64,000 nucleotides of DNA from Salinadaptatus halalkaliphilus. GTDB taxonomy: Archaea; Halobacteriota; Halobacteria; Halobacteriales; Natrialbaceae. The notes beneath the pieces were generated by a model. It ran no database searches and had not been told where the DNA came from. It was given only the letters and a program-made list of their open reading frames with translations. Made by a program: the position numbers and the translations under genes. The stretch is from assembly GCF_006543045.1 (NCBI RefSeq), contig NZ_RBZW01000016.1, forward strand, positions 62,001-126,000, given 5' to 3'. The first letter of the stretch is position 1, and each line of letters opens with the position of its first letter. Shown one piece after another: positions 17,683 to 26,341 of the stretch.

Positions 17683-17709
17683 TCGATGTCGAAAGTTGTT
17701 CACACCAGC

Positions 17710-18288
17710 ATGGACTACAGGCTCGAGATCGACGACACGCCGGCGACGGTACCTGGGGGGACCGGCGTCCTCTTGCTCCACCCGAGCACCGGTGAAACAG
17801 ATCGCATCGATACCGACTTTCTCAAAACCGACACCGATCACTTTCTCGTCGTCTCCACCCGAACTACCGCCCGCGAAGTCAGACAGAAACTCGAATACTA
17901 CGATGTCGACGAAGAGCGTGCCGAGATTCTCGACACCCTGAGCATCGAACGCGGCTACTCCCGACGGAAGACGGATACCGTCCACTACGTCGCCGCCCCC
18001 GACGACGTCGACGGCATCGTCGAGCACATCGACGGCTTCCTCGAGAACCACGACGGCAAACTTCGACTCAGCTTCGACTCCGTTACAGAACTCGCCTACT
18101 ACGCCGGCGACGACGACGCCCTCGAGGCCGTCGAGCGCATTCTAGGGTTGCTCGAAGAACACGACGCGATCGGACTGTTCCACCTCTCGGAAGAGCCCCA
18201 CGACTCGGCAGTCGTCGAGCAGTTCCGTGACCAGTTCGACGGCGTGATCGATCTCGCCGAGGACGGCAGCGTCGACACCGAGTTCTGA
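17710..18288 (+). CDS. Haloarchaeal RecA-fold-like protein (DUF7090 type)
   Basis: 192 residues from the ATG at 17710 (MDYRLEIDDTPATVPGG...). The start TVPGGTGVLLLHPSTGETDR and later LRLSFDSVTELAYY (Walker-B-like region) and LLEEHDAIGLFHLS resemble a shortened KaiC/RecA fold without a full Walker A. I recall this as a conserved haloarchaeal family numbered DUF7090, from memory and unverified. Function unknown. Convergent with the phosphoesterase gene. Confidence 0.8.
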   Translation: MDYRLEIDDTPATVPGGTGVLLLHPSTGETDRIDTDFLKTDTDHFLVVSTRTTAREVRQKLEYYDVDEERAEILDTLSIERGYSRRKTDTVHYVAAPDDVDGIVEHIDGFLENHDGKLRLSFDSVTELAYYAGDDDALEAVERILGLLEEHDAIGLFHLSEEPHDSAVVEQFRDQFDGVIDLAEDGSVDTEF

Positions 18289-19945: not shown

Positions 19946-20728
19946 CTACTCCGCGAGCGCGTCGAAGGTCGTTTCGGCCCACTGGATGGCGTAGTCGGGG
20001 CCGTGATCCCGGTACGCAGCGGTATCGAGCGCGTCGAACGGCGCCGGCAGTTCGATCCCGTGTTTGATCGCCCCACAGGCCAACTCGGTGGCGTCGGCGA
20101 AGTCGGTCTCGCCGCGTGCGACCGCCCGTGACAATCCCGAGACTCGATCCTCGAGCCGGTCGCCGGCATCTCGCCACGCGTTGGCGAGATCAGGGTGGGT
20201 GTCGTGCCAGCCGGCGAAGATCTCACGAGTCTGGACGCCGAGCCAGCCATCGTACAGCGCCGCAGCGATCTGGTACGTGCTGTTGGGATCGAACGGGACC
20301 GCTCGATCGAGATCTCGATACTGCGCCTCGAAAAAACCGATGAACTGTTCGGGCACCTCGAGTCCGCACTCGACCAGCGCTTCCGCGACGAGAAATTCCA
20401 CGAACGGTTCCGGCGAGCCTTCGATGCGCGGTTTGACCAACACGACCGGTGGGTCGGTCTGGCGGGTCCAAACGATGCTGCCGTCGCCGGGCATGCCGAT
20501 CGTAAACGTCGAACTCGCGTACCGCTCGAGCAGCGTCGGCGCGTCCGCGGGAAGCCACTCGGTTGGGTAGCTCGCGGGCTCGAGTGCGTCGACGAGTAAT
20601 CCGAGATCCTCGGCCTGTGCCGGCGCCAGCGTCTCGAAGTCCGTCGCAACGTCACAGACGAGCGCGTCGGGTGCGTGCTCGTCCCGGACGGCGTCGACAC
20701 TGCTCGAGCAGTCTCGAGGCTCGAACAT
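19946..20728 (-). CDS. Conserved haloarchaeal protein (DUF7089 type)
   Basis: 260 residues from the ATG at 20728 (MFEPRDCSSSVDAV...). The longer reading from 20842 runs through an upstream small gene in another frame and is rejected. Acidic, no membrane segment or catalytic motif I recognise. Conserved-looking blocks are VVLVKPRIEGSPEPFVEFL and CGAIKHGIELPAPF. I recall this as haloarchaeal family DUF7089 from memory. Its ATG shares one base with the stop of the 30-residue membrane peptide gene, so the two are translationally coupled. Confidence 0.8.
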   Translation of the reverse strand: MFEPRDCSSSVDAVRDEHAPDALVCDVATDFETLAPAQAEDLGLLVDALEPASYPTEWLPADAPTLLERYASSTFTIGMPGDGSIVWTRQTDPPVVLVKPRIEGSPEPFVEFLVAEALVECGLEVPEQFIGFFEAQYRDLDRAVPFDPNSTYQIAAALYDGWLGVQTREIFAGWHDTHPDLANAWRDAGDRLEDRVSGLSRAVARGETDFADATELACGAIKHGIELPAPFDALDTAAYRDHGPDYAIQWAETTFDALAE

Positions 20729-20820
20729 CAAGCGGCGGTGACTTGCTGGGCGACGATCAGCAGCGACAGCAGTGCCGAGACCGCGACCGTGGCGAGAACG
20801 ACCTTCGTTGCAGTGCTCAT
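20728..20820 (-). CDS. 30-residue single-span membrane peptide
   Basis: Reads MSTATKVVLA then TVAVSALLSL LIVAQQVTAA and stops at TGA. Residues 6-25 form one membrane helix after a short polar N-terminus with one lysine. A TATA-like TTTATGG (20845-20852 reversed) lies about 25-32 nt before the ATG, so it has a leaderless promoter of its own. The TGA overlaps the ATG of the DUF7089-type gene by one base (TGATG), which argues that it is really translated. Function unknown; it may anchor or regulate the downstream product. Confidence 0.7.
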   Translation of the reverse strand: MSTATKVVLATVAVSALLSLLIVAQQVTAA

Positions 20821-20844
20821 AAACGGAGGCTATCACCCGCATTC

Positions 20845-20852
20845 CATAAATC
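20845..20852 (-). promoter_or_regulatory. TATA box of the small-peptide/DUF7089 operon
   Basis: Minus-strand ATTTATGG, 25-32 nt before the ATG at 20820. Confidence 0.55.
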
Positions 20853-20920
20853 CATCTGTCTGTCTTGGGTCGTCAGTCGTCTCTAAGCCGTAATCGATCG
20901 CCGACGAACGATCCATAGCG

Positions 20921-21102: not shown

Positions 21103-22203
21103 TCACTCCTCGGTATCACCGTCACGCCAGGAGTCGGGGACGTCGATGACGTAGCGTCCGTCTTCCTGGAGCGAAATGATGTATTCCTCGCGGTTGTACA
21201 ACTCCATGAGGTTGAGTTCGTACTGTCCGGGATTGACGATTTTGATGCTCTCGAACTGTTCGTTGAGCTCCGCACGGAGTTCTTCGATCGATGGCTGATC
21301 ACCGGACGGTTCGCTCACTACGCGACCGTGGTCCGGCGCCTGCTCGTCGTCGACAGCCGGCTGATCGGTGCCCGTCGTCCCCTCGACGGTACCGGCCGGG
21401 ATGTCGTCGTTCGAAACGACACCACCCCTGGCATCGGCCTGTGCCGAATCCTCGGTCTCGGTAATCGGCGGTTTCGACGGAGCGCTTTCGGCCGACGAAT
21501 CAAGTTGATCGCGTCCACTGGCACCACTCGAGCGATTGCTCGCATCGTCGCCGCTCGATCGATCCGACGGTTGGTCCGGCGCTGACGATCTGTCTTCGGG
21601 CCGGCGAGCAGTGTCTGGCCACTCCCCAAACTCGGATGGCTCATCCGTCGATCCACCGCCCTCGCCGGTCTCACTCGCGGGCCAGGCGGAAGCGGATTCT
21701 GCATCGGCGTTGGCACCGGCCGTCTCGAGGCCCTCGGGAGCGGTTTCAGTGTCGGCAGAGGTCGGGTCGGTATCGGCAGAGGTCGTGTCGGTATCGGCAG
21801 AGATTGGGTCGGTATCGGCAGAGGTTGGGTCGGTATCGGCGGACGCAGTCCCCGCCTCTCCGAGAGCGGTTCCGCTATCGGCAGCGGTCGCCCGCTCGCC
21901 GTCGCGACCGTCGTCGGACGTTACCCAGTTTCGAACGGTCTCGGTCGCTTTCGTGAATCCGCTCTCGGAATCCCAGCCCGAGGTCTCGTCGCCAGCAGGG
22001 TCCTCGTCGGGAGCGTCTGCAGCCGACGCTACTGGGGCTGTGTCACCCCCGCCCTGGGACTCCGATCCCTCCGCTGGATCCTGCGATGTCGATCTCGAGG
22101 GCGTAAACTGAAACTTGTTCCCACCACAGTCCGGACAGCCCGACAGCATCTCCTTGGAGCCGTCGGGAAACGTCCGGCCGCAGTTCGTACATTCGTGTGG
22201 CAT
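21103..22203 (-). CDS. oapC: Origin-associated zinc-ribbon protein OapC
   Basis: 366 residues. A zinc ribbon at the start (CTNCGRTF..., GCPDCGG, residues 4-29), a long acidic disordered middle (about 40-300), and a conserved C-terminal block SIEELRAELNEQFESIKIVN plus QYELNLMELYNREEYIISL. It follows oapB with the ATG and stop sharing a base. OapC, OapB and OapA are known as proteins encoded next to the main origin in haloarchaea; their exact role is unresolved. The middle includes a 21-bp tandem repeat coding SADTDPT units. Confidence 0.85.
   Translation of the reverse strand: MPHECTNCGRTFPDGSKEMLSGCPDCGGNKFQFTPSRSTSQDPAEGSESQGGGDTAPVASAADAPDEDPAGDETSGWDSESGFTKATETVRNWVTSDDGRDGERATAADSGTALGEAGTASADTDPTSADTDPISADTDTTSADTDPTSADTETAPEGLETAGANADAESASAWPASETGEGGGSTDEPSEFGEWPDTARRPEDRSSAPDQPSDRSSGDDASNRSSGASGRDQLDSSAESAPSKPPITETEDSAQADARGGVVSNDDIPAGTVEGTTGTDQPAVDDEQAPDHGRVVSEPSGDQPSIEELRAELNEQFESIKIVNPGQYELNLMELYNREEYIISLQEDGRYVIDVPDSWRDGDTEE
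21746..21850 (-). repeat. 21-bp tandem repeat in oapC
   Basis: Five units of 21 bp (core TCGGTATCGGCAGAGGT), the outer ones diverged, coding on the minus strand for S-A-D-T-D/E-x-x. In frame, so copy number can change without a frameshift. Confidence 0.85.
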
Positions 22204-24577: not shown

Positions 24578-26341
24578 ATGTCTGACGACGATCTAAACAC
24601 GCCGCCGACCGACGATCTCGATATCGACGGTACGAGTGGCTTCTCGACGGACCTCGAGGGAACCGACCTTGGCGAGGAATCGTCGAACCAGGGCTTGTTC
24701 GACGATCTTCTCAGCGGTGAACCGATCTTCGAGAACAAGGAGGTCTTGCGACCGTCGTATACGCCACACGAACTTCCCCACCGAAACGATCAGATCAACA
24801 AGATGGCGACGATTCTCGTCGCCGCCCTTCGCGGTGAAACCCCCTCGAATATCCTGATATACGGGAAGACGGGGACCGGCAAGACCGCGAGTGCGAAGTT
24901 CGTCAGCAAAGAACTCGAGAGTACGTCACAGAAATATAGCGTCCCCTGCGACGTCGAATACATCAACTGCGAAGTCACCGACACTCAGTATCGCGTGCTC
25001 GCGCAACTGGCGAACAAGTTCATCGAAAAAAACAAAGCCCGTATCGACGACAAAATCGACTCACTCGAGACGCTGCTCGAGCAGGTCGATGCCGCCGGTG
25101 CCGATGTCGATGCCGGTCCAGCGGGATCGAACACGGATTCGACGACGCCTGCCGAAGGTTCGGGCTCGGTATCCTCGGTTTCGAGTCGAAACCAAACCGA
25201 CGGGAAAACGGACGACTCAGCCGCCGATACTGGTCGCCCAGTCGAAACGGCAGGGTCGGCCGAGGGCGACGATACGGGTAACGCCACGCCGTCTGATTCC
25301 GGTTCGACGGACGGCCTGTCCACGGACGAGGCGACTGGGGACCAGCCCTCCCCCGATGAGTCTACAGTAGCGCACCCGCTCGAGTCGACGCCGTTCGACT
25401 CCAGAGCCGATGTCGTCGAACGGATCGAACAGCTCGCAGCGGACAAAGAGTCCTTCGAGGACGTGCCGATGACCGGTTGGCCAACCGATCGAGTCTACAG
25501 CGTCTTCTTCGACGCCGTCGATTACGACGAGCGAGTCGTCGTCATCATGTTAGACGAGATCGACAAACTCGTCGAGAAAAGCGGGGACGATACGCTCTAC
25601 AATCTCTCGCGGATGAACTCCGAACTCGAGAACTCTCGCGTGTCGATCATCGGCATTTCGAACGATCTCAAGTTCACGGACTTTCTCGATCCGCGGGTCA
25701 AGTCCTCGCTTGGCGAGGAGGAGATCGTTTTCCCGCCCTACGACGCCAACCAGCTTCGCGATATTCTGGAACACCGATCGGACGTGGCGTTCAAAGGCGG
25801 TGCGCTCTCCGAGGACGTGATCCCGCTGTGTGCGGCCTTTGCCGCACAGGAACACGGCGACGCCCGCCGCGCGCTGGATCTGCTCCGGACCGCTGGCGAA
25901 CTTGCCGAGCGATCCCAGGCTGAGACGATCGACGAGGACCACGTTCGCCAGGCCCAGGACAAGATCGAACTCGATCGCGTCGTCGAGGTCGTTCGGACGC
26001 TGCCGACCCAGAGTAAGCTCGTCCTCTTTGCGATCATTCTCCTCGAGAAAAACGGCGTCCACAGCATCAATACGGGCGAGGTGTACAATATCTACAAACG
26101 TCTCTGTGAGGAGATCGACGCCGACGTTCTTACCCAGCGTCGGGTCACCGATCTCATCAGCGAACTCGACATGCTCGGCATCGTCAACGCCGTCGTCGTC
26201 TCGAAGGGACGATATGGCCGCACCAAAGAGATCAGCCTCTCGGTGCCGATCGACGAGACCGAGGCCGTGTTGCTCTCGGATTCGCGACTCTCCGACATCG
26301 ACGATGTCCAGCCGTTCGTGCAGGCGCGCTTCGAGAACTAA
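24578..26341 (+). CDS. orc1: Orc1/Cdc6 origin-binding initiator
   Basis: 587 residues. AAA+ core with Walker A IYGKTGTGKTASA (about 93-105), Walker B VVIMLDEIDKL (about 317-327), sensor 1 IIGISNDLKF and sensor 2 EHGDARRALDLLR; then a winged-helix domain (about 470-587) that grips ORBs. A low-complexity acidic insertion of about 95 residues (about 175-270) splits the AAA+ core between the first helices and Walker B. Next to the ORBs it binds, this is the initiator of oriC1. Confidence 0.96.
   Translation: MSDDDLNTPPTDDLDIDGTSGFSTDLEGTDLGEESSNQGLFDDLLSGEPIFENKEVLRPSYTPHELPHRNDQINKMATILVAALRGETPSNILIYGKTGTGKTASAKFVSKELESTSQKYSVPCDVEYINCEVTDTQYRVLAQLANKFIEKNKARIDDKIDSLETLLEQVDAAGADVDAGPAGSNTDSTTPAEGSGSVSSVSSRNQTDGKTDDSAADTGRPVETAGSAEGDDTGNATPSDSGSTDGLSTDEATGDQPSPDESTVAHPLESTPFDSRADVVERIEQLAADKESFEDVPMTGWPTDRVYSVFFDAVDYDERVVVIMLDEIDKLVEKSGDDTLYNLSRMNSELENSRVSIIGISNDLKFTDFLDPRVKSSLGEEEIVFPPYDANQLRDILEHRSDVAFKGGALSEDVIPLCAAFAAQEHGDARRALDLLRTAGELAERSQAETIDEDHVRQAQDKIELDRVVEVVRTLPTQSKLVLFAIILLEKNGVHSINTGEVYNIYKRLCEEIDADVLTQRRVTDLISELDMLGIVNAVVVSKGRYGRTKEISLSVPIDETEAVLLSDSRLSDIDDVQPFVQARFEN

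Follow-up and report, generated by a model that had tools for sequence, protein, structure and literature searches.

Directly in front of the DUF7089 gene of Salinadaptatus halalkaliphilus lies an open reading frame of only 30 codons, which raises the question whether it is a gene in its own right and how it is tied to its neighbor. A sequence-only reading of the window, i.e. the whole stretch of 64,000 nucleotides that was analyzed, had proposed a short membrane peptide with its own promoter that is translationally coupled to the following gene. The features needed to assess this proposal are:

20728..20820, minus strand: microprotein gene, PF24004 (Microp_archaea), 30 amino acids, predicted single-span; identified by open reading frame, Pfam match and conservation
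20846..20850, minus strand: TATA-like box TTTAT at -30 to -26 of the microprotein ATG; identified by conserved position and background rank
20726..20730, minus strand: TGATG stop/start overlap, presumed termination-reinitiation site; identified in the sequence and in relatives
19946..20728, minus strand: downstream gene DUF7089 (PF23363), 260 amino acids; Pfam E 9.2e-133

The microprotein gene and its conservation

The microprotein reading frame extends on the minus strand from 20820 to 20728 and consists of an ATG, 30 codons and a TGA, in agreement with the position, the ATG and the 30 residues given in the sequence-only reading; its product is MSTATKVVLATVAVSALLSLLIVAQQVTAA. The peptide matches the Pfam family PF24004 "Archaeal microprotein" with 32.3 bits (cut-off 27, E 7.2e-8) in an alignment covering only profile positions 1-19 of 29, and it displays the PF24004-type features of the relatives gathered here, namely a length close to 29 residues (30 in the window), an N-terminus of the type MSxATK (here MSTATK) and one hydrophobic stretch. 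As a member of this Pfam-named family the peptide is already known and not new in kind; our analysis adds to PF24004 that its coupling geometry and its leaderless-type promoter are conserved and that its distribution is nested, with the peptide outlasting DUF7089, as described below. The highest mean Kyte-Doolittle value over 19 residues is 2.42, and the single membrane helix that had been proposed is also predicted here by hydropathy, while K6 is the sole charged residue. Neither NCBIfam models nor PHROGs matched the peptide, and a search of its profile against the PDB sequences gave no match up to E 1. The literature searched yielded neither data on expression, proteomics or interactions of the peptide nor any papers on DUF7089, PF23363, PF24004, Microp_archaea or "archaeal microprotein". 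HVO_3011 and HVO_3011A were not mentioned in this literature, and HVO_3012 to HVO_3014 were mentioned in PMC10927574 only.

Relatives of DUF7089 were searched and the best 80 of 95 confirmed loci were examined. A peptide of the same kind is located upstream of DUF7089 in the same direction in 79 of these 80 loci. The exception is a Haloquadratum locus, which was left out of the 79-locus counts as it lacks an intact peptide; judged by eye, it retains a decayed copy upstream of the DUF7089 match (L087:2600-3010) with ATA in place of ATG. Among 108 unique peptides M1 and T5 are invariant, K6 and T11 are each changed in a single peptide, and charged residues beyond position 6 are absent throughout. 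All 108 reach a 19-residue hydropathy mean of at least 1.6. In the codons of the peptide, position 3 varies most and position 2 least, and the pooled pN/pS is 0.41 (1020 pairs with 3 to 21 differences over 84 bases), a value that comes from non-independent pairs and that hydrophobicity by itself would lower through pN. The variation analysis was performed without the two copies of the window (L001, L002) on 109 peptides and 128 DNA sequences, which still include one false regular-expression match (L092) that was removed for the counts on 108 peptides. The frame, the length, the ATG and the distance to the TATA-like element recur throughout the class, which makes a chance reading frame unlikely and confirms the microprotein as a genuine haloarchaeal gene.

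A conserved face of the helix was also looked for. No periodicity of 100 degrees was detected either in conservation (shuffle p 0.51) or in small residues (p 0.97), and the helix thus gives no particular indication that it packs against a partner. As neither signal rose above the shuffles, a packing face was no longer considered.

A TATA-like element in front of the microprotein gene

The TATA box that had been proposed at the right distance from the peptide is borne out, both in the window, where TTTAT occupies -30 to -26, and in the relatives. Across 80 loci (79 relatives and the window) the consensus TTTAA at -30 to -26 forms the sole sharp element in the 60 bases before the ATG, with a T at -29 in 79 loci and a T at -28 in 76. 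When scored with a leave-one-out matrix, which still holds close relatives, the site in front of the peptide ranked within the top 5% of the local background at every one of 82 loci (L147 and L148 in addition to the 80), whereas the DUF7089 start passed the same test in only 8 of the 73 loci scored as coupled. At spaced loci the TATA-like sites of DUF7089 were weak at best, with ranks of 0.05-0.07 in four of nine rows listed as uncoupled; one of these nine, L093, was mis-set and has its true start at TGATG. A TATA element at about -30 to -26 of the ATG has the spacing expected for a leaderless haloarchaeal transcript. Since the element is regular at the peptide and seldom found at DUF7089, the pair looks like one transcript starting at the peptide. 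Leaderless transcripts account for 72% of the transcripts of Haloferax volcanii according to PMC6728339.

Additional positions are conserved in the window (20829..20861, minus strand) and its relatives, namely -41 (A/G), -39 (A), -36 (G), -11 (A) and -9 (C) across the 80 loci. The positions at -41, -39 and -36 before the box, and those at -11 and -9 between box and ATG, possibly belong to a BRE or to the site of a regulator.

The junction with DUF7089

In the window the junction reads GCC GCT TGATG TTC, and the A at 20728 is shared by the TGA of the peptide and the ATG of DUF7089, in line with the overlap that had been claimed. This geometry is widespread. Stop and start are separated by anything from an overlap of 1 nt to a gap of 6 nt in 74 of the 80 loci that include the window, the junction being TGATG in 43, TAATG in 4, TAGATG in 10 and a gap of 3-6 nt in 17, with at least 17 nt in the remaining 6. 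Without the window, 73 of 79 loci fall within -1 to +6 nt and 42 have TGATG; the sequence-only reading had named the conservation of the peptide upstream of the orthologous gene as its check, and both the frame (79 of 80 loci) and the coupling arrangement were thus found to be kept. For these counts the DUF7089 starts set by tblastn were corrected in L086, L093 and L104, and L093 was counted as TGATG although its ATG is preceded by an in-frame GTG. An uncoupled layout occurs in Halosimplex carlsbadense, where the peptide (L068:1151-1237) is positioned 1763 nt upstream of DUF7089.

Gene pairs of this type have been studied in H. volcanii. Nine of nine tested pairs of H. volcanii, and 13 of 14 over two species, were strictly coupled (PMC6728339). 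A spacing of about 20 nt nearly abolished reinitiation, and in H. volcanii pairs at -8 to +10 nt encoded subunits of complexes in 45.2% of cases versus 5.6% where the distance exceeded 20 nt (PMC10666635). The locus resembles these termination-reinitiation pairs in the -1 nt TGATG overlap of the window and in the overlap or short gap of 74 of 80 loci; it differs in that the upstream cistron comprises only about 30 codons. Given the short gaps in most loci and the published behavior of the H. volcanii pairs, translational coupling of the peptide to DUF7089 is likely. Overall, the proposal of a short membrane peptide gene coupled to the next gene is supported, and we infer its translation and membrane location.

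Distribution of the microprotein and DUF7089

A profile built from 48 peptides was searched at a threshold of E 0.01 and matched 383 of the 391 sampled genomes from the class Halobacteria, where a match reports the sequence and implies neither an ATG start nor adjacency to DUF7089. The peptide is single-copy in nearly all matching genomes, with two matches in four of them, and the match in one genome (G317) is marginal at E 0.0059. The Pfam model of PF24004 detected 335 of the 391 genomes at E 0.001 and 294 above its cut-off; among the matches listed, many of the two models were seen by eye to lie at the same places. H. volcanii, included as a control, carries the PF24004 family. In a draw of 374 genomes from the phylum there were 72 peptide matches, all within the class, and none in the 299 genomes from outside it, with the division of the draw into class and others deduced from the order of a listing that leaves out 282 of the non-matching genomes.

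DUF7089 was found in 365 of the 391 class genomes at E 0.001. All 365 have a peptide match, and DUF7089 was never seen without the peptide, whereas among the 26 genomes in which DUF7089 was not matched 18 retain the peptide. All eight genomes without a peptide match also have no match to DUF7089. The co-occurrence is significant in a Fisher test that ignores phylogeny (p 1.2e-10). Six of the 26 genomes were identified by elimination, and the family model of DUF7089 found no copy in the 23 of the 26 to which it was applied. Some of the absences may be gaps, as several genomes in each of the two groups, the 26 and the eight, are small or incomplete. The 18 genomes that retain the peptide indicate that it is more than a leader of DUF7089 and that an obligate partnership with DUF7089 is not the whole story.

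Five stand-alone peptide loci (L142-L146), chosen because their coordinates were among those listed, were inspected. DUF7089 is not present in them, and each has a TTTA[AT] element whose first base is 28 to 30 nt ahead of the ATG of the peptide.

The DUF7089 protein

The DUF7089 protein of the window matches PF23363 with 441.9 bits (cut-off 27) over positions 1-258 of 258 and is thus full-length when read from the TGATG start. An AlphaFold2 model based on 38 sequences was obtained with a mean pLDDT of 94.5 and a pTM of 0.91. The DUF7089 profile matched no PDB sequence up to E 1, Foldseek gave no match to the model at E 0.001 or better, and PHROGs yielded one weak match (E 0.036). In a second structure comparison the best match was 8exq_A (BlaR1) with Z 5.3, rmsd 5.8 and 142 aligned residues, which is below the level of a clear match. 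The top structure matches listed include many zinc metallopeptidases, among them several aminopeptidase chains, and all of them are weak; families that do not appear in this comparison may still be related to DUF7089. Gluzincin-type metallopeptidases bind zinc through the motif HExxH, and this motif occurs in none of the 38 DUF7089 sequences. DUF7089 was therefore dropped as a gluzincin-type zinc metallopeptidase, given the missing motif and the weak structural match; the comparisons possibly point to a degenerate zincin-like fold, which is at most a lead.

Proposed expression and role of the microprotein

The locus is probably best explained by a single-span membrane microprotein that is encoded first on a leaderless bicistronic mRNA, is coupled to DUF7089 by termination-reinitiation, and serves as a membrane partner of DUF7089 in addition to a role of its own. 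Transcription would begin at the ATG of the peptide or a few bases before it, and the resulting leaderless mRNA would include DUF7089 as well. The 30-residue peptide would be translated first and inserted as a single helix with the MSTATK end probably in the cytoplasm. The ribosome would then halt at the TGA and reinitiate on the overlapping ATG to produce DUF7089, and the output of DUF7089 would consequently be tied to that of the peptide. The peptide most likely acts as a docking or assembly partner for DUF7089 at the membrane, and it may also have a role that does not depend on DUF7089. Against a strict form of coupling stand the six of 80 loci with gaps of at least 17 nt.

A bolder account, possible though doubtful in our judgment, regards the peptide as a near-universal and class-defining membrane component, which became linked to DUF7089 and on which DUF7089 depends. 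The peptide would have a core role of its own, perhaps at the origin or vesicle (arvABC) locus, and it would outlast the loss of DUF7089 because of this core role in the membrane.

It is unlikely that the peptide is a mere translated leader, whose inert product is a by-product of loading ribosomes for the reinitiation at DUF7089. Such a leader would agree with the geometry of the junction and with a TATA-like element that is regular before the peptide and not before DUF7089. However, it would not account for the conserved amino acid sequence, for the 18 of 26 DUF7089-less genomes that keep the peptide, or for the stand-alone copies with a TTTA[AT] element of their own.

The genomic neighborhood suggests another role, in which the peptide would be part of the archaeal vesiculation system beside arvABC (oapABC; arv names as in PMC10927574) and act in the membrane together with ArvA. 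The gene next to the microprotein is:

21103..22203, minus strand: oapC/arvC, PF09845, next gene upstream of the microprotein; identified by Pfam, context only

According to Pfam matches it is accompanied by oapB/arvB and by a small GTPase that occupies the oapA/arvA position, which are likewise upstream on the minus strand. An Orc1/Cdc6 gene starts divergently at 24578 (Cdc6_C, E 2.4e-33). ArvC matches were found in the flank of 38 of the 80 relatives' loci, many of them from one family, and in all but one of the five stand-alone loci. According to PMC10927574, arvABC affect the formation of extracellular vesicles in H. volcanii. However, 42 of the 80 relatives' loci showed no ArvC match within a flank of up to 3 kb (shorter in 11), a conserved TATA-like element of its own precedes the peptide, and the adjacency may reflect synteny of the origin region. 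Moreover, ArvA is present in 14 archaeal phyla (PMC10927574), whereas the peptide was found in this class only, which makes a general link between the peptide and the Arv proteins unlikely. We therefore regard a part in vesiculation as improbable.

A membrane-anchored form of DUF7089, generated by frameshifting or by readthrough of the stop codon so that the peptide is fused to it, is very improbable. The peptide abuts DUF7089, and in 47 of the 73 coupled loci no stop codon interrupts the DUF7089 frame over the entire peptide gene. However, the relative frame of the two genes varies among loci (gap modulo 3 of 2, 0 and 1 in 48, 13 and 12 of the 73), which argues against a fused product. Finally, a chance reading frame inside a longer DUF7089 gene can practically be dismissed, as an in-frame upstream start does exist (at 20842, ORF 19946..20842, 298 amino acids) but the DUF7089 profile is matched in full from the TGATG start and the frame of the peptide is conserved and also present where DUF7089 is missing.

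A near-universal, single-copy membrane gene of 30 residues that is retained without its coupled neighbor lends itself well to a clear-cut knockout in H. volcanii. Such a knockout would tell whether microproteins of this type are working parts of the membrane or mere devices of translation. The evidence places the microprotein gene, for which the roles given above are proposals.

Further observations on neighboring genes

Past DUF7089 a further gene is of interest:

17686..18288, strand opposite to DUF7089: DUF7090 (PF23365; weak KaiC match), second gene past DUF7089; identified by Pfam

In two of the stand-alone loci (L142 and L143) the peptide adjoins DUF7090, which is a possible third member of the neighborhood of peptide and DUF7089. 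In the stand-alone loci with an ArvC match, an amino-acid-kinase gene is located between the peptide and ArvC; this was tested in L142, and a similar arrangement was seen by eye in L143, L145 and L146. The middle of the ArvC/OapC protein of the window (21103..22203) is long and hydrophilic and contains SADTD units in repetition, and the extent of the tblastn match to ArvC differs much between loci. The translations of L143:2287-3625 contain runs such as MCIRDS and YKRQ beside an unresolved base, which resemble remnants of sequencing adapters.
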